This document shows, one piece after another, positions 1 through 10,000 of a stretch of DNA of 10,000 nucleotides. The stretch is taken from positions 1 through 10,000 of the forward strand of contig VSJD01000209.1 in NCBI GenBank assembly GCA_008636095.1, read 5' to 3'. The notes beneath the pieces are model-generated. The model saw nothing but the letters and a program-made list of their open reading frames with translations. It ran no database searches and was not told the origin of the DNA. The DNA comes from Kiritimatiellota bacterium (GTDB lineage: Bacteria > Verrucomicrobiota > Kiritimatiellia > JAAZAB01). The translations under genes were made by a program, and so were the position numbers. The stretch's first letter is position 1. Each line of letters begins with the position of its first letter.

Positions 1-628
1 CATCTGCCATAAGCAAGGCCTTGAAATGACGGTTTACAGCGGCTACGAGTGCGAGGACACGCATATGCTTTACGGCGTGGACTGGCACAAGCTGGGGCCG
101 CAGGTGGACAAGGGGTATTGCGGCTATGGCCTCAACCCGGCACGGATCGCCGAGACCAAAGCCTGCCTGGGCCAGGCACCGCTGATCGGCGGTTTGCTTA
201 CCACCGGCGAACGTCTGCAGGGCCATACGCCGGCGCAGATTCTACAGCAGTTGCTGGCCTGTGGCGGCGGTGTGCTCATCTGGTATGAGGCTGGCTGGGA
301 CGCCGGTCTGTTGCAATCGGTCGCCAAGGTCACGAAAATGGTCGCCGGTTGCGAGGACATTCTTACCGCCGGCCAGCGCTGCGACACCTTGGTGACGATT
401 GGCGGCGGCCTGAAGGCCGGCAACCTCGCGGCCTTCCGGTTGGATAACAGACTGCTGGTATTGCTGTGGAACAATTCCGGTAATCCGTGCGAGGCGCGCT
501 TGAAGTTTCCTGAAAAAACGGTCGGACTGACGGAGTTTGCCACCGGCCGGCAACTGCCCGCGCCGCCGTCAGAGACGGTAGTGACGGTGCCGGCGGGCGA
601 GTTTGTGGTCATTACCGCGAAGCTCTGA
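1..628 (+). CDS. C-terminal part of a glycosidase-like barrel protein (partial, 5' end outside the window)
   Basis: The reading frame is open from base 2 to the TGA at 626-628 and gives about 208 residues, so the ATG at 26 is an internal methionine and not the start. The residues align with the last ~210 residues of the 997-residue protein on the other strand: shared blocks are VYSGY, YGVDW, CGYG, a PLxxG strand and GGVLI, in the same order and spacing. It therefore represents the last strands of a TIM-barrel-like domain plus a small C-terminal beta domain of the kind that closes many glycoside hydrolases. The N-terminal part, where CBM9 and the CxC..C motif sit in the paralog, is not visible. 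One difference matters: the Glu after PLVVG in the long paralog is Leu here (PLIGGL). The sequence is much more GC-rich than the paralog. Substrate unknown; activity as a hydrolase is inferred only. Confidence 0.75.
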   Translation, partial: ICHKQGLEMTVYSGYECEDTHMLYGVDWHKLGPQVDKGYCGYGLNPARIAETKACLGQAPLIGGLLTTGERLQGHTPAQILQQLLACGGGVLIWYEAGWDAGLLQSVAKVTKMVAGCEDILTAGQRCDTLVTIGGGLKAGNLAAFRLDNRLLVLLWNNSGNPCEARLKFPEKTVGLTEFATGRQLPAPPSETVVTVPAGEFVVITAKL

Positions 629-2146: not shown

Positions 2147-3577
2147 ACTAATCTAAATTTTCACCGAACAGCGGATTGTGTCGGTCGAACATGTCTGTTT
2201 GCGGTTGTCTGGCTTGTTAGCGCCCTGGCGGTGCAGGCCGCCGACACGCATTACGTCTCAATGCCCGGGGGCTATGGCACGAACGATACTGCCGGCGGCT
2301 ATACCAACTGGGAGGGTGCGGCGACTCAAATTCAATGGGCGGTGACTGCGGCCGTTGACGGCGATACGGTGCTGGTTACCAACGGAACATATAATCTGAC
2401 CAACCAGATTGTCGTGACGAACGCAATTACACTGCAAAGCGTGAATGGCCGTGACTTTACATTTATCAACGGCAATTATCCCGCCTATTCCAACCGGTGC
2501 ATGTTGTTGAGTGATACCAATACTGGCATAGCGATAGTGGATGGGTTTACAATATCTAATGGGTATATTACGACTAGTTCTGGCGGTGGCGTTTACATAT
2601 TTGGCGGATCCTTGAAAAATTGCCACATTCACGACAATTACGGCGCATACGGCGGTGGTGTTGCTATGGCTACGGTCCCATGGGGGAGACCATTCTATTA
2701 CGCGAAGCAAGATGTTTTAAATTGTATTATCAACAGTAATCGGGGGGGGAACTTTGGCGGCGCATTAATAGGTGGCGGACAATACGGTGGCAATTGTGGC
2801 ATGGTAAGCAATTGCGTTATTTCATACAATACCGCAACCACAGCCGGATATCCCGGAGGTTTGGAACTTGGGGAAAAGTCTATGTATAATTCCGAAATTT
2901 CCTATAATACCGGACCTATCGGCGGTATTAAGGCCGGCTGGAACGCCAGCATGATCTATGAATGTAAAATTATCGGTAACAGCGGAACTGACTGTGGCGG
3001 GGTAAGTTTCTCAAAGGGTCATACCTGGGGTTTGAGAAATTGTCTGGTCTACAGCAACCATGCCACAACCGGTGCAGGTGGCGTTAAGATTTGGATGGAG
3101 TGCCGTTATGTAATTAGCGACATCATACGCAACAGCACGATAGTTTCTAATTCCACCGACTCTTCAACTAATGCCGGCGGAATCTATTTTTACAGTTTGG
3201 CCAACTCGAACGAGAGTGCCTCAATTTATAATTCCATTGTGTATTACAATTCAGCCGGCGGCCCATATAGCAATGTTTGCAATGGCCTCGGTAGCACTAA
3301 TATTAATGTTTATAATTGTTGTATTGGGACGACTAACGATGCATTCTTGCCGGCAACGAACGTCAATAATATTATTTACGCCGATCCGTTATTGATTGAT
3401 CTGCCCGTCGGAAATTGTCGTTTAAGTTCCAGTTCGCCCTGTATCAATGCCGGGATGTTCGAGACCTGGATGACGACGGGTGTTGATCTTGATAACCGCA
3501 TCCGTATCCGGTACGGGATCGTGGACCTGGGGGCGTATGAGTTTGTCCGCAGCGGCACCATCTACGGTTTCCATTAG
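2144..3577 (+). CDS. Secreted right-handed parallel beta-helix protein with choice-of-anchor-like C-terminus
   Basis: 477 residues from ATG 2144. A signal peptide with a hydrophobic core (FAVVWLVSALAVQA) ends at a likely AVQA|AD cleavage site. The mature part opens with the start typical of this group (an Ala-X-Gln-X-Ala-V helix followed by GDTVLVTNGTY and then a cap strand). It continues with about nine imperfect rungs of the form N-C/S-x-I-x-x-N followed by a Gly-Gly turn, for example LKNCHIHDN, VLNCIINSN, VSNCVISYN, LRNCLVYSN and IRNSTIVSN. This is the pattern of pectate-lyase-like and Pmp-like beta-helices. The end (SPCINAG, then DLDNR, then VDLGAYE) matches the choice-of-anchor type Q domain seen in surface proteins. 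There are only about ten residues after that, and I see no PEP-CTERM or LPXTG-type sorting tail. No catalytic residues can be named. Binding or cleavage of a polysaccharide at the cell surface is possible, and so is an adhesin-like role. An eight-G tract lies inside it. Confidence 0.8.
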   Translation: MTNLNFHRTADCVGRTCLFAVVWLVSALAVQAADTHYVSMPGGYGTNDTAGGYTNWEGAATQIQWAVTAAVDGDTVLVTNGTYNLTNQIVVTNAITLQSVNGRDFTFINGNYPAYSNRCMLLSDTNTGIAIVDGFTISNGYITTSSGGGVYIFGGSLKNCHIHDNYGAYGGGVAMATVPWGRPFYYAKQDVLNCIINSNRGGNFGGALIGGGQYGGNCGMVSNCVISYNTATTAGYPGGLELGEKSMYNSEISYNTGPIGGIKAGWNASMIYECKIIGNSGTDCGGVSFSKGHTWGLRNCLVYSNHATTGAGGVKIWMECRYVISDIIRNSTIVSNSTDSSTNAGGIYFYSLANSNESASIYNSIVYYNSAGGPYSNVCNGLGSTNINVYNCCIGTTNDAFLPATNVNNIIYADPLLIDLPVGNCRLSSSSPCINAGMFETWMTTGVDLDNRIRIRYGIVDLGAYEFVRSGTIYGFH

Positions 3578-6567
3578 CCCGGACATTTTATTACAAATAC
3601 TGCGGCATCGTGCGGCAAAATGTCGGCATTAATCGTGTTCACATGGCCCAAATCCTTGCCGCCGTAATAGTCAAGGACGCGCGTGTTTTCGCCGAGATTT
3701 TGATTGGTAATGACCACTTTCCGGACGACATTTTCCTCGTTGATAATCACAATCAATCTTGTCTGGCCGTCCGTGAAAACCACCACGCTATCCGGTTCAA
3801 TGCCGGAAACCTTGACCAGGGAAGAATCTTTATTCCGGGTAAGGAACAGCGGCTCGTAATCCTTTACCAGTCTGGATACTTCCGCCAGGGCGTAAAACGT
3901 TCTCCCGTCAAGCTCGGTCAGCGTGTAAATCAGCACCCCGCCCGTTCCATCCGTAACCCGCCTTAAAAGGGTCGCTTTGCTTGCATACGCCGGATATATT
4001 TGCTTTTTAACATCATAGGGATAAACTATCTCGCCGACAACCAGAGGGGTTTTGCCGAGGGCGGCAAGGGTGTCATTGATTGTTTTTTCGGAACGTCCGT
4101 ACCCGCACATGGCGTAATCAATCTTGCCGGCCAGCATTGACCAGTCAACCCCATAGCCCTCCTTGGTTCTTTCATCTTGATAACCGCTATAGACCGAGAA
4201 GATTGCCTCAGGATTGGCCTTTTTTACTGCTTCCCGCTCTTTTCCGGCTACTAAAGCCATGCGCATGTTCATAAACCTGATCCATTCATTAGGGTAATCC
4301 TTCTTGATACTCGCCGAGGTAATTTTTATCGAAGGGGAGATTTGGGAGGATTCTTTGAACTTCTCTAAACAACGGGGGCAGTAGCAGGAAAGATAACCAT
4401 GCCAGACTCCATTTTCACAATCCCAGTTAACATGGCCTAATTTTCGACTCTTTACATGTTCGCCAATTCGCTCCACAACAAATTCCCAGGCAGAGGAATC
4501 CTTATCCAAAAGAAAACTGGTACAAGGGTACCTGTAACTGACGTTGCCTTTATCATCCAATAAGGCATGTTCAGGATGTTGTTTAAGATAGGAACTGCAA
4601 TCTATGCCATTCCCTCCTGTGGCGTTTATAAGACTGGCATTTCTTAAGTTAATTCCTGCTGGAATCGACTTGCCATATATTATGTCGTTAAATCCGACCG
4701 CCGCAAACCCCGCCATTATTTTTTTTGCCAGATCAGGATTGTCCAGCCTGCTCAGCCAGCCAGTCCATAACTGGAAAATATACTTTTGCGGCTGGCCCCC
4801 TTTTATGGGCGGCAGAATATTGACGGCCAGTTTCTGGGGCACTTCGGCAATATTGCCGTTTTCCGCGCCCAGGTAATAATAAAATTCGGTTTTGCCGCTC
4901 TTGTCCCCCAGTTCCGGGAGCTGAACCGGAATAGAGACAAACTGATATGAGCCGAGCTTGTTGTTGAACGGCAGGTTGGTATTTACGCTAATCTGGTATT
5001 TAACGTAATTCTTGCCGTTGCGCGCGACCTTTTCGCTCCCTTTCACGGAACAAGTTGCCCTCTTATAGTAACCGCTGGCTCCGAGCACTTTAAACTCTTC
5101 CGGAACTTCAAGATAAAAATTATAATCATTCAGCGTCCTGCCCGCCAGCCCCTCGGGAACCAGGAAAAGCTGCTGGATGCTGTTCCGGGCTATTGATATT
5201 CCGCCCTTCTGCCAGTTCGGCCAGAATTTGCTTGTATTTAAAACGATTGATTTGCGGTAATATCCCTTGGCCTTGAATTCACTGCCCGCGGCCGAGGCAA
5301 AATTCCAGGCGCCGGCGTTGAAGGCCCTGGCATTCCAATTGCTTTCGGCCGATTCGGAATATTTCCAGGTATTGTCCAGCGGAATAACATGTGTTCTGAC
5401 CGTAAATCCGCCCTTGAGCGTCCCTTCTGTTTTAATCCCCACTATATTCTCGCCTTTCAACAGAAATCCCTGCTTGTCTATTTTCTGGCCGTTTAAATAT
5501 ATTTCATAGGCTGAATTTCCGGAAAGGTCAGCGGCCAGGGCTGATGATTTAACATCCGAACGATAAGCAGGTGTCCGGTAATATGTTTTCAGATTCAAAG
5601 GATTCACTATCCCGAACTGCGCCATAAACTCTCCATCCTTGTCCAGCGCATAATTTAAATCCAAGGCCGTCTTTTCCGATATGTCAAAGTCCTTTAAGGT
5701 TCTGGCCGGGACGGACTGGGCGAATTCAACCAGGCTTTCCAGCCGCACGTGAAAATTGGTGCCGGGCGGCAATACCGAGCAATTGAGCGTATTTGATCCG
5801 CGGACAAAACCACCGTAGTCCAGATTCCTGACCTGCGGAACCGCTCCCGCAAGAACCATCCGGCCGAAGCCTCCCGGGGTGTGAAAAGCTTTTTCCATCG
5901 GCTGCCAGAGACTCCCCTCCTTACCAAAGCAATTATGCCTGCCGATTTGGAATCCGAACGTTTGATCCAGGATCGGATTGATTTTCAGGCTCGCTAAAGG
6001 AACCGCGCATTCCACTGTCCAGCAGCCATCGCCGATCTGCGATTTTACAGTCGCTTCACTGTTCCATGTTTTGTCCCTGTTCCCCCACGAATTCGCGCCG
6101 GAGCACAGGCCATCATTGACCGCGCCATTGGCATTGATGAAAATATCGTAGAAACTGTTTTTAGCTACATCCGGCTGAAGCAGGACAAGCACCCAATCGT
6201 CGGCAAAGAGTTTATCATCGTCATTGGCGCAAACATCTTTTTTAAACGCCTGCAGTTGATTCTGAACGGGGTCAAGGCAACCCTGGGCGCAATGGAAGGC
6301 GATATATAAATTTTTCCGGTCGTAACAGATATAGGCCTTGGTCTGTTCCAGCGCCTTTTTGTCGGATGTGTCGGCATTGATAAAAGGCGCAATTTCAACG
6401 GAGTTTTGCCAGCAGGCGTCATCCAGCTTGCCGTCAATAACCGGAGCGGCCGGAGTTTTCCCGGCCGCGATCAGGCCGGGCAATGGGGCCGCCACGGCAA
6501 AATTACCAAGGACCAGCCATGCCGCGTACGATATGATAAGCATTGATTTTGTTATGAACGCATGCAC
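3574..6567 (-). CDS. Secreted multidomain glycosidase-like protein: CBM9-like module plus TIM-barrel-like domain
   Basis: 997 residues from a GTG start. Residues 1-27 are a signal peptide with an AVA|AP cleavage site. Residues ~30-241 resemble the CBM9 family: VIDGKLDDACW at the start, a YICYDRKNLYIAF strand, a DDWVLVLL strand, and WTVECAVPLASL near the end. Residues ~350-445 contain a jelly-roll-like stretch (YEIYLNG, then GENIVGIKT) as found in accessory domains of large glycosidases. Residues ~594-905 look like a beta/alpha barrel, with HVNWDCENG at ~712-720, the cysteine cluster CYCPRC at 728-733, YSGY and YGVDW at ~793-809, and PLVVGE at ~841-846. A beta domain closes the protein (~906-997). 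Asp716, Glu718 and Glu846 are candidate acidic active-site residues, by position only. CYCPxC sequences also occur in barrel glycosidases of the GH42-like type, often as a metal or structural site. Substrate unknown. It is probably co-transcribed with the gene upstream (46-base gap). Confidence 0.75.
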   Translation of the reverse strand: MHAFITKSMLIISYAAWLVLGNFAVAAPLPGLIAAGKTPAAPVIDGKLDDACWQNSVEIAPFINADTSDKKALEQTKAYICYDRKNLYIAFHCAQGCLDPVQNQLQAFKKDVCANDDDKLFADDWVLVLLQPDVAKNSFYDIFINANGAVNDGLCSGANSWGNRDKTWNSEATVKSQIGDGCWTVECAVPLASLKINPILDQTFGFQIGRHNCFGKEGSLWQPMEKAFHTPGGFGRMVLAGAVPQVRNLDYGGFVRGSNTLNCSVLPPGTNFHVRLESLVEFAQSVPARTLKDFDISEKTALDLNYALDKDGEFMAQFGIVNPLNLKTYYRTPAYRSDVKSSALAADLSGNSAYEIYLNGQKIDKQGFLLKGENIVGIKTEGTLKGGFTVRTHVIPLDNTWKYSESAESNWNARAFNAGAWNFASAAGSEFKAKGYYRKSIVLNTSKFWPNWQKGGISIARNSIQQLFLVPEGLAGRTLNDYNFYLEVPEEFKVLGASGYYKRATCSVKGSEKVARNGKNYVKYQISVNTNLPFNNKLGSYQFVSIPVQLPELGDKSGKTEFYYYLGAENGNIAEVPQKLAVNILPPIKGGQPQKYIFQLWTGWLSRLDNPDLAKKIMAGFAAVGFNDIIYGKSIPAGINLRNASLINATGGNGIDCSSYLKQHPEHALLDDKGNVSYRYPCTSFLLDKDSSAWEFVVERIGEHVKSRKLGHVNWDCENGVWHGYLSCYCPRCLEKFKESSQISPSIKITSASIKKDYPNEWIRFMNMRMALVAGKEREAVKKANPEAIFSVYSGYQDERTKEGYGVDWSMLAGKIDYAMCGYGRSEKTINDTLAALGKTPLVVGEIVYPYDVKKQIYPAYASKATLLRRVTDGTGGVLIYTLTELDGRTFYALAEVSRLVKDYEPLFLTRNKDSSLVKVSGIEPDSVVVFTDGQTRLIVIINEENVVRKVVITNQNLGENTRVLDYYGGKDLGHVNTINADILPHDAAVFVIKCPG

Positions 6568-7816: not shown

Positions 7817-8578
7817 TTACTCCTGTTTTTTTTCGACGAAATAGAATGGATCTTCCTGCAATTTCTTATATGCCACATCCCACAACGGTTTGGTGTGAAT
7901 GATATGCATAGCGCCTTGAAGAAAAGGTCTGCATAGCAGGTGGTCTTTATTTAGTAATGGCTCGATGCGGTCATACCTCTGACGCCATCCAGCAAACCCA
8001 TGTGTTTTATAAGTTTTGACACGCTCAGTTCCGTCCGGGAGTTTCAACGTATAGGTTATTTCCGGCCCGAATAAATAAGGCGGTACCACGAGTTCCTCGA
8101 TGGCATGCATCGAGGTGTTGGGACCCAGGCCGCATCCCAGCATGATGATATAACCCTGCTCGTCAGGTAATATGTGAAACGGAGAGTGCGGACCGCAGGG
8201 CGTGGTATCCAAAACATGATTTCCCAGCATTCTTTCAGCCAGTCTTCCGATTCCGCAGACAGAATGCGTGGGATGAATGCTTCGCAGCGTCCCCGCGCGA
8301 ACGCGAAAATATTCGGGCAGCGTCCCCACGCATGCGGGCGTCAATTTTACATCAAATACCGGCTGAGTCGGCGTAATATGTTTATAGCTCAAGGCCGGCA
8401 TCAACAGGGTCCCTTCGGTCCCCAACACCTCCAGGAGAGCTCGAATGATAGCTTCAGCTCCTCCGGGCACATTTCCCAAGGGCCGCAGGGCCGCATGAAC
8501 AAGAACAACCTGCCCTTGCTTAACGCCCGCCTTCTCCAAAGCCATGGTCATATCCGAAATATATGTCGATTCATTCAT
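7817..8578 (-). CDS. AAC(3)-family N-acyltransferase (YokD/FrbF-like), full length
   Basis: 253 residues from ATG 8578; a TTG just upstream at 8581 is a less likely start. The family is the antibiotic N-acetyltransferase fold (AAC(3), Pfam PF02522), which moves an acyl group from acyl-CoA to an amine. Visible signatures: VLVHAALRPLGNVPGGAE at ~26-42, TEGTLLMP at ~54-61, RSIHPTHSVCGIG at ~99-111, TTPCGPHSPF at ~125-134, LGCGLGPNTSMHAIEE at ~147-162 and RYDRIEP at ~201-207. The His of HPTHS (102) and the Glu of HAIEE (161) match the family's catalytic residues. The usual length is about 260-290, so it is complete. No signal peptide: cytoplasmic. Chromosomal members of this family in environmental bacteria often do not act on antibiotics; known relatives act on other amines, including natural-product intermediates (FrbF). 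The ribosome binding site is weak (AGG, 9 bases before the ATG). Antibiotic resistance should not be assumed. Confidence 0.85.
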   Translation of the reverse strand: MNESTYISDMTMALEKAGVKQGQVVLVHAALRPLGNVPGGAEAIIRALLEVLGTEGTLLMPALSYKHITPTQPVFDVKLTPACVGTLPEYFRVRAGTLRSIHPTHSVCGIGRLAERMLGNHVLDTTPCGPHSPFHILPDEQGYIIMLGCGLGPNTSMHAIEELVVPPYLFGPEITYTLKLPDGTERVKTYKTHGFAGWRQRYDRIEPLLNKDHLLCRPFLQGAMHIIHTKPLWDVAYKKLQEDPFYFVEKKQE

Positions 8579-8650
8579 CAATCAAACCTGAGTTTTACTT
8601 GAAAGATAACCAGTTTTGCGGCCTGCGTAAAGAGGAAAATCGGCGCATCT

Positions 8651-8683: not shown

Positions 8684-8712
8684 TTGAGCCCCGTGCGCAT
8701 TAATCATATACT
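8684..8712 (+). promoter_or_regulatory. Sigma70-like promoter upstream of the cyclase gene
   Basis: TTGAGC at 8684-8689 and TATACT at 8707-8712 are separated by exactly 17 bases. Transcription would start near 8719 and run through the inserted element into the cyclase gene, giving a leader of about 180 bases, of which 119 bases are the insertion and its duplicated target. Confidence 0.5.
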
Positions 8713-8760: not shown

Positions 8761-8769
8761 ATGAAACAA
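8761..8769 (+). repeat. Left target-site duplication of the MITE-like element
   Basis: ATGAAACAA directly abuts the left terminal inverted repeat. The same nine bases stand directly after the right one (8880-8888). Confidence 0.8.
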
Positions 8770-8787
8770 AAGACTTCTGCAAAATAC

Positions 8788-8807
8788 GCCGCGTGAGGTC
8801 ACGCGGC
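8788..8807. repeat. Hairpin 1 of the element (9-bp stem)
   Basis: GCCGCGTGA at 8788-8796 pairs with TCACGCGGC at 8799-8807. Read on the minus strand, it directly follows TTTGTAGG and forms the unit that mirrors hairpin 3. Confidence 0.75.
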
Positions 8808-8834
8808 CTACAAAGTCCTTGTTTTTTGTAGGCC
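8805..8834. repeat. Central inverted repeat of the element (10-bp arms)
   Basis: GGCCTACAAA at 8805-8814 is the exact reverse complement of TTTGTAGGCC at 8825-8834. Its arms share bases with the two outer hairpins, so the folds are mutually exclusive in part. Confidence 0.75.
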
Positions 8835-8850
8835 CACTCACCGAGTGGGC
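8832..8850. repeat. Hairpin 3 of the element (8-bp stem)
   Basis: GCCCACTC at 8832-8839 pairs with GAGTGGGC at 8843-8850 across ACC. It follows TTTGTAGG on the plus strand. Confidence 0.75.
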
Positions 8851-8879
8851 GCGATTTCAGGTCATTTTGCAGAAGTCTT

Positions 8880-8888
8880 ATGAAACAA
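8880..8888 (+). repeat. Right target-site duplication of the MITE-like element
   Basis: Second copy of ATGAAACAA, directly after the right terminal inverted repeat. Confidence 0.8.
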
Positions 8889-8896
8889 CGTTGGCT

Positions 8897-9532
8897 ATGA
8901 TGAGCACGCGGGTTGATTTAACGCTTTCCATTCCCGCCCAACCGGCGGATGGCACCGCCGTGGTCACGCCGGAAGAACTGCGCATTCAGAATTACACGGG
9001 CATGGTTTACCACTTCCGGCACGACAGTATGGCCGGAACCTATATTGATTTTCCGGGGCACATCAAGGAAACCGCGGACGGGTTCGATGCCGCCAATTAC
9101 CCGATGGGAAAATTATTCCGTGTGGAAGCTACCGTGATCCACCTGGACCGTGCCGGGGGCTCGGGCGCCGTGACCGCCGCAGAATTGGCGGCCGCCTGCC
9201 CAAAACCGTTCCGGGGACAAGCGCTCGTGCTGAACGCGCTCGGCGCGCGCCGGTTTGATGCAATTGAATCCCGCAGTGTCTGGCTGGGCCGGGATGCGCG
9301 CCGCTGGATTATCGAGCGCAACATTCATTTGCTGGTGTCCGATATTTATGAATCGAAAACGCTGGAGGGTGTGTTCCTGGATTTATTTGGGGCGGGCATT
9401 ACCACGGTTTGTCTGCCGATCAATCTGTCGGCACTGACAACTCCTTATGTGCGGCTGACAGCTTTGCCCGTGCGGTTTGAAACGGTGACCCAATTGCCCT
9501 GCCGGGTTGTGGCGGAGTTGATCCAAGCGTAA
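8897..9532 (+). CDS. Cyclase-family (KynB-like) protein with an altered metal-binding motif
   Basis: 211 residues from ATG 8897 (a second ATG follows at once at 8900). The length and outline fit the cyclase family (Pfam PF04199), to which the metal-dependent arylformamidase KynB and related amidases and lactonases belong. The family signature HxGTHxDxPxH appears at residues 45-55 as MAGTYIDFPGH: Gly, Thr, Asp51, Pro and His55 are kept, but the first and second His are Met45 and Tyr49. The C-terminal part (SDIYESKTLEG, LPINLSAL, TALPVRFE, PCRVVAELI) is typical of the family. With two metal ligands missing, the protein may bind one metal, use another mechanism or be inactive; this is inference. 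No signal peptide after residue 1, so cytoplasmic. There is no clear Shine-Dalgarno site, and the MITE ends 17 bases upstream. The frame stays open back through the element to the TGA at 8762. A 48-base gap leads to the second AAC(3)-family gene, a likely operon. Confidence 0.75.
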   Translation: MMSTRVDLTLSIPAQPADGTAVVTPEELRIQNYTGMVYHFRHDSMAGTYIDFPGHIKETADGFDAANYPMGKLFRVEATVIHLDRAGGSGAVTAAELAAACPKPFRGQALVLNALGARRFDAIESRSVWLGRDARRWIIERNIHLLVSDIYESKTLEGVFLDLFGAGITTVCLPINLSALTTPYVRLTALPVRFETVTQLPCRVVAELIQA

Positions 9533-9580: not shown

Positions 9581-10000
9581 ATGATTCAGCAAGCTGAGAT
9601 CGAAAAGGGATTAAAAACAGCGGGGCTCAAGAAGGGGGCCACGGTTATCCTGCACAGTTCGTTGGCCAGTCTGGGCCAAGTGGCCGGCGGTGCGGAGACG
9701 GTAGTGAACGCTTTTCTCCACGTGCTCGATTCGACCGGCACGCTGGTGGTGCCGACGTTTGGGGCTCTGGGCGCGATTACCGATGCGGTCAAGGCGCACC
9801 CAAAAGCAGTGCAGAGTCTGCATCCGCTGGCGGGTGTGGCGGCAATTGGCGCCAAGGCCAAAGCGATCTGCCGGGATCATTGGCAAGCCGGACTGGCGCA
9901 CGAAAAAGATACGCCTTATATGCGCATTGCGGAACTGGGCGGCTATGTCTGCCTGCTGGGCGTGGACCAGGACCGCAACACCATGCTGCACTCCGTAGAG
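9581..10000 (+). CDS. Second AAC(3)-family N-acyltransferase (partial, 3' end outside the window)
   Basis: 140 residues are visible from ATG 9581 to the window edge, with no stop. Signatures of the AAC(3) family are clear: VILHSSLASLGQVAGGAET at ~22-40, TGTLVVPTF at ~52-60, SLHPLAGVAAIG at ~79-90, DTPYMRI at ~110-116 and LLGVDQDRNTMLHSVE at ~125-140. The catalytic His (81) and Glu (140) of the family are both present. It differs from the copy at 7817-8578: the segment between the VP/MP strand end and the HP motif is about 18 residues shorter (25 against 43), and TTPCGPHSPF is replaced by DTPYMRI. The two are thus diverged subfamilies, not a recent duplication, and probably use different acceptors. 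The ribosome binding site is weak (GGA, about 8 bases before the ATG). A tandem AAAGTAGA pair (9552-9567) sits in the gap to the cyclase. Cytoplasmic; substrate unknown. Confidence 0.8.
   Translation, partial: MIQQAEIEKGLKTAGLKKGATVILHSSLASLGQVAGGAETVVNAFLHVLDSTGTLVVPTFGALGAITDAVKAHPKAVQSLHPLAGVAAIGAKAKAICRDHWQAGLAHEKDTPYMRIAELGGYVCLLGVDQDRNTMLHSVE

Follow-up and report, generated by a model that had tools for sequence, protein, structure and literature searches.

The DNA analyzed here, referred to as the window, is a 10,000-nucleotide stretch from a Kiritimatiellota bacterium (contig VSJD01000209.1), and all coordinates are those of this 10-kb window. Its source assembly (G000, the element's own genome) comprises 3.8 Mb in 357 contigs and is 87% complete. 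Between a promoter-like site and a cyclase-family gene, we found a complete 110-bp element at 8770..8879 that is likely a miniature inverted-repeat transposable element (MITE) built around a pair of repetitive extragenic palindromes (REPs), as judged from its inverted ends, shuffled controls, and related elements in other genomes. Its left 16-bp terminal inverted repeat (TIR), AAGACTTCTGCAAAAT, lies at 8770..8785 on the plus strand and has a perfect reverse complement at 8864..8879 on the minus strand, with 78 bp between the two ends. Related ends elsewhere, termed family A herein, read AGACTTCTGCAAAA, often preceded by T. Directly outside the ends stand two copies of the 9-bp sequence ATGAAACAA, read directly at 8761..8769 and 8880..8888, for an insertion unit of 119 bp; the left copy is also supported by direct repeats in the family. 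Two interior hairpins each adjoin a GTAG, and the GTAG motifs face each other. REP 1 (8787..8811, minus strand) consists of GTAG at 8811-8808 followed by the hairpin GCCGCGTGACCTCACGCGGC at 8807-8788, and it recurs elsewhere in the genome. REP 2 (8828..8850, plus strand) consists of GTAG at 8828-8831 followed by the hairpin GCCCACTCACCGAGTGGGC at 8832-8850. The inner stretch between the REP hairpins runs from CTAC to GTAG (8808..8831) and can form a third hairpin by CTACAAA/TTTGTAG pairing. In the terms used in excerpts of PMC3733652, the facing GTAG motifs make this a tail-to-tail dimer.

An earlier note on this DNA, made from the sequence alone, had described perfect 16-bp inverted ends inside an exact 9-bp repeat, with nothing coding between them. 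Direct reading and shuffles confirmed the first of these claims. At up to three mismatches, the 16-mer AAGACTTCTGCAAAAT had only two matches in the window, whereas 200 shuffles of the window gave a mean of 0.07 matches and never two. A repeat search returned arms containing these ends (8767-8785 and 8864-8882, 95% complementary). Since two matches never arose in shuffles and elements with the same ends occur independently in other genomes, the chance that the inverted and direct repeats are a coincidence or an assembly artefact is negligible in our estimation. The claim about coding content also held, as the sole overlapping open reading frame (ORF) of at least 80 aa among those listed is an upstream extension of the cyclase frame, beginning at a TTG at 8819. 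The whole element folded far better than its shuffles (z −9.3 as DNA and z −9.9 as RNA). The predicted fold is a cloverleaf consisting of the TIR stem, the two REP hairpins, and the third hairpin. REP 1 alone (8788-8807) additionally reads as a terminator-like hairpin on the minus strand, with one found versus 0.4 expected.

Elements with the same ends were found in sister species and in distant bacteria. Searching at up to one mismatch located the end at six places among 10 genomes of the order, five of them within the window's genus. The exact inner 14-mer occurred at 13 places in 10 of 345 class genomes. Five of these places lie in G000, G002, and G004, which belong to the window's genus, and those outside the genus lacked a partner end within 400 bp at up to three mismatches. 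Paired 10-bp arms 76-106 bp apart were present in 4 of 332 class genomes (G000, G002, G004, and G135), three of which are in the window's genus, and inspection revealed full elements at G002:C118, G004:C48, G002:C225, and G004:C12, G002 and G004 being sister species. When a genome-contig collection covering 84,980 species was searched for 12-bp arms at the same spacing, five records were returned, including KSB1, Caldithrix, and Uhrbacteria. The distant genomes of these five records, taken together with G002 and G004, held 83 end matches at up to one mismatch (some single matches among them may fall inside genes) compared to 3 for the reversed control. Two unusual arrangements of these ends were also seen. 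In G002:C184 (L190, ∼511-545 of the locus), a near-bare family-A palindrome has ∼8 bp between its ends and no REP core, and it may be an empty frame or the product of a deletion. In G346 (L166, L192, L194, and L195), family-A ends stand singly, and a repeated ACAGGACACAGAGAACAC-like tail takes the place of the second end.

To score direct repeats, we used 35 two-armed elements of 90-180 bp within chosen loci, allowing up to three mismatches per arm and four in total and dropping unpaired ends. The score was the longest exact repeat adjoining both ends with up to 3 bp of slack, and 1190 mismatched flank pairs served as the control. Direct repeats of at least 8 bp flanked 13 of the 35 elements versus 1/1190 control pairs. 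For at least 9 bp the counts were 12/35 versus 0/1190, and for at least 11 bp 8/35 versus 0/1190. Where present, the family-A repeats measured 8-15 bp, which implies that the duplication is not fixed at 9 bp. Sister-species elements with the same ends carried other direct repeats, namely CAATGGGTA, ATATCCGGTAAA, and GTACAAACGATCCA[T]. The prediction of several copies with different 9-bp duplications was thus right about the differing duplications but not about a fixed length, and the MITE-like nature proposed in the earlier note gained support from same-end elements with different direct repeats in sister species and distant bacteria. AGAG was found in exactly one arm in 8 of the 35 elements and in both arms in none (0/35); this one-sidedness, seen in the sequences, could be a trace of the left and right ends of an insertion sequence (IS).

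These repeats bear on whether the ends are of the TIRtron kind, moved by a Y1 enzyme rather than a DDE transposase. As described in excerpts of PMC3733652, TIRtrons and TIRYT repeats are repeated inverted repeats unrelated to REPs; such TIR families, often dimers, are reported there in several species. The own genome likewise has four Y1 matches. According to the same excerpts (PMC3733652), TIRtrons are tied to Y1 genes and many carry a GGGGWSAS motif, but neither was seen for the window ends. No end at up to three mismatches was located on C138 and C203, the contigs of the two located Y1 genes out of four. The matched direct repeats in 13/35 elements also speak against this origin, as Y1 enzymes are not known to duplicate their targets. 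We consider a TIRtron origin very improbable.

The outer arms could instead belong to a long hairpin, a REP dimer with an outer stem, that is retained for DNA or RNA structure and has nothing to do with transposon ends. In ten family-A copies from G348 (L177-L179, L182, L200, and L202-L206), the arms and interior covary as such a hairpin would. Double changes occurred in 17 of 45 pairs compared to a shuffle mean of 8.9 (0/500 as high), and they were far fewer when partners were slid. These paired changes suggest that the palindrome is under selection or that one arm is used to repair the other. Across the 35 elements, eight deviations were common to both arms, above the mean of 1.8 for free permutations (1/5000 as high) and the mean of 4.1 for permutations within genome groups (110/5000 as high). 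Most frames other than family A and the GATTCC frame described below lack direct repeats, which also fits a structural origin. However, all eight shared deviations fell in G348 and G349, with deviations elsewhere being one-sided or different between arms, and one of five covariation measures, further pair types, showed no excess (30 versus 29.9 in shuffles). Matched direct repeats outside the family-A arms, and the same arm sequence around different interiors in distant bacteria, likewise argue against it. Overall, we find the hairpin explanation improbable, and because the covariation is confined to G348 and G349, we do not use it as a main argument. It does affect how the age of the element is judged. 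Since palindrome arms change together in at least one distant genome (G348), perfect ends are not a safe sign of recency, contrary to the earlier argument for a recent event, although the intact duplication still favors a fairly recent insertion.

The interior of the window element consists of two GTAG-type REP hairpins that face each other, a pair that is multi-copy outside the element. Three other places in the own genome match the REP-like part (query 26-66 or 26-52) without these ends, and the interior recurs without them in relatives as well. A facing GGCCTACA/TGTAGG arrangement was found at seven own-genome places, the window included, versus two for the reversed pattern. An outer inverted repeat scoring at least 15 surrounds two of the seven, those in the window and in C328 (G000), with the other five scoring at most 8. 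In C328, a similar GTAG pair lies inside a different perfect inverted repeat, GGTTGTGTCATTCTT.

Upon comparison of the family-A elements, we found that interiors folded better than shuffles (z < −2, 40 shuffles each) in 31 of 35 and, as we read their sequences, differed by lineage. The window has a GTAGGCC pair, G002 and G004 have GGAGGG pairs, and G002:C225 has a GGTAGGG pair. Within the same ends, distant genomes have an outward-facing GTAG...CTAC pair (G345), GTCATTTCG arms (G346), or long palindromes (G348 and G349). Similar REP cores were also found in other frames. The GGAGGG-type core of G004, used as a query, matched in 7 of 10 family genomes. We then scored outer inverted repeats around REP pairs at 67 loci, comprising GGAGGG-core and GTAG-pair places; flanks shorter than 50 bp were dropped, and the loci include some chance in-gene pattern matches. 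These loci were chosen from earlier match lists and cover part of the listed places for REP cores and ends. A score of at least 10 was reached at 26/67 loci versus 204/4422 mixed flank pairs, where the 26 include family-A and GATTCC members and the 204 include within-family pairs and overlapping records. Other frames included AGAGCCTCTTGCAAAACTC (G000:C233), TGAGGTAATTTAAAACTCC (G000:C34, with a score of only 9), TGCAGAGGCTGTTGAAAAAC (G001), and GAAGCTGTGAAAAAATTG-like (G001, G006, and G008). The GATTCC frame of G006, GATTCCGCTGAAAAACCC, matches the window element in length at 109-111 bp, and three of six such elements have direct repeats of 9-11 bp. At a score of at least 9 there were 31 framed loci, seven of which had a direct repeat of at least 7 bp (slack up to 6 bp) compared to 7/930 mixed pairs.

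Taken together, these results make it likely that the window element is a mobile frame, a MITE, with a REP-pair core. It has shared 16-bp TIRs and a flanking duplication, and it is short and noncoding; one copy was found in its own, incomplete assembly. The AGACTTCTGCAAAA ends would have been recognized by a transposase acting in trans, which was probably a DDE enzyme given that targets are duplicated. It would have inserted frame and core as a single unit through a staggered cut, which spans 9 bp at this locus and 8-15 bp across the family. We favor a scheme in which the core entered the frame, or was exchanged in it, separately from the ends. GTAG-type REP pairs are thought to be handled by Y1 transposases, known as REP-associated tyrosine transposases (RAYTs). 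In an extended, two-layer form of this scheme, one end family would have spread across several phyla and taken up in each lineage a core native to it, whether a REP pair or a long palindrome, with REP cores passing in turn between several different frames. This would make the core a mobile unit in its own right, carried by the frame as its vehicle and perhaps placed in the frame's palindrome by a RAYT-type enzyme. We put this extended form forward tentatively and regard it as rather unlikely.

A plainer MITE history, without recurrent exchange of core and frame, would involve an internally deleted IS containing REPs or a one-time entry of REPs. Chance capture is conceivable given how many REPs some of these genomes contain, and many of the frames are alike and perhaps diverged relatives that retained one core. 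On the other hand, three REP types are found in the same ends within one genus, and similar REP cores are found in several frames within one family, for which a single event is insufficient. We see the plainer history as a serious possibility, if one we would not bet on.

Several observations weigh against the reading of the window element as a mobile frame whose core came separately. With regard to insertion, 22 of the 35 family-A elements lack direct repeats of 8 bp or longer, and among the 13 copies from G348 and G349 none exceeds 6 bp. All seven repeat-bearing framed loci belong to family A (four) or the GATTCC GATTCCGCTGAAAAACCC frame (three) and none to other frames, which leaves insertion unsupported for the remaining frames. 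Many frames also look alike by eye in that they share a block similar to TTGCAAAAC, possibly as diverged relatives of one another. This likeness weakens the case for exchange in those frames, but not for the differing REP families inside family A. That a RAYT moved the core into the frame is a step that we infer. Near the two own-genome Y1 genes examined there was no GTAGGCC hairpin, only three bare motif matches 0.5-1.4 kb off. Copies were expected in the host and related genomes, and relatives do have elements with the same ends, but a second copy of the 128 bp was not found in the own assembly. The parent IS postulated in the earlier note did not turn up either. No IS or transposase with family-A ends was found in the own genome (at up to three mismatches), the order, the class, the five distant genomes (examined around unpaired ends), or viral contigs, most of these assemblies being fragmented. 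Lastly, an empty site in a relative lacking exactly 119 bp had been anticipated, but no clean one was found. Among 10 family genomes, a near ortholog of the cyclase is present only in G004 (90% aa identity), where the element is absent. The upstream neighbor differs there too, so that synteny breaks at the spot of the element and no clean empty-site comparison can be made.

Two of the searches for the parent need qualification. The 17-base end matched 0/82 genomes of one phylum, but it is a poor probe because the family carriers G345 and G346 fail to match it too. The 15-mer gave 95 viral stretches, 80 of them listed as loci, and inverted two-arm pairs were present in ten of 107 viral loci. 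Three were inspected as candidate IS spans and taken as chance, since L380 has poor arms and the spans of L346 and L311 fall within genes that look phage-like by eye. Separately, a Y1 transposase match in G006:C397 (L109, 1-3561) lies at 382-660 amid ten GTAGGGCG-type motifs, which resembles the layout of a REPtron.

REP pairs and MITEs are generally regarded as distinct classes of repeat, each with enzymes of its own. Both MITEs that carry a REP and REP dimers set in palindromes have been published. The QMITE2 element of Coxiella burnetii is likewise a short MITE that has TIRs, direct repeats of 7-9 bp, and a REP of the GTAG type, but it is set apart by its description in excerpts of PMC10969869, being longer (full length ∼190 bp), having TIRs of 23-29 bp, and being described there for C. 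burnetii only. GTAG-15 of A. variabilis and CGTC-1 of H. neapolitanus are similar in that a REP dimer sits in an outer palindrome with a family consensus. Excerpts of PMC3733652 briefly report these dimers as inserted in palindromes and mention no target duplication or cross-phylum frame. REPINs, bacterial interspersed mosaic elements (BIMEs), and RAYT-linked GTAG REPs share the facing GTAG-tagged palindromes and the Y1 genes in the genome, but REPINs are not described with outer TIRs and target duplications in the excerpts of PMC3733652 and PMC6006769. The end family, its wide spread, and its changing cores appear to be new, as they were not found in print by end-sequence or text searches, which did not extend to figures and supplements; the papers returned for the end sequences were, judging by their titles, unrelated. 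If the regular nesting, the ends common to several phyla, and the lineage-differing cores are real, REPs may be carried without a transposase of their own. The earlier-noted REP dimers inside palindromes could then be read in the same way, and there would be a concrete set of ends for tracing the transposase.

Returning to the locus, the promoter-like site TTGAGC-17-TATACT (8684..8712, plus strand) lies upstream of the element, and the cyclase-family gene (8897..9532, plus strand; PF04199, E 1e-8) lies downstream. The earlier note had the element separating a good promoter from the cyclase gene. A promoter-like site is indeed present; it has 9/12 matches, and one such site was found versus 0.4 expected in shuffles, which is weak evidence. 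If transcribed, the element would give the cyclase gene a 5′ leader with a very stable, cloverleaf-like fold and could affect its expression. Ribosome-site-like starts lie within 60 bp outward of 20/35 family-A elements versus 524/2100 random positions; as the random positions include coding DNA, this excess only suggests a preference. At the window element itself, the right ATGAAACAA copy provides the ATG of a six-codon frame, MKQRWL, which overlaps the cyclase start (8880-8900). The cyclase gene is flanked by two Antibiotic_NAT (PF02522) genes, at 7817-8581 on the minus strand and 9581-10000 on the plus strand. Farther away, a gene fragment at 26-628 (plus strand) resembles, by eye, the C-terminal part of a 997-aa CBM9-domain protein encoded at 3574-6567 on the minus strand and is paralog-like.
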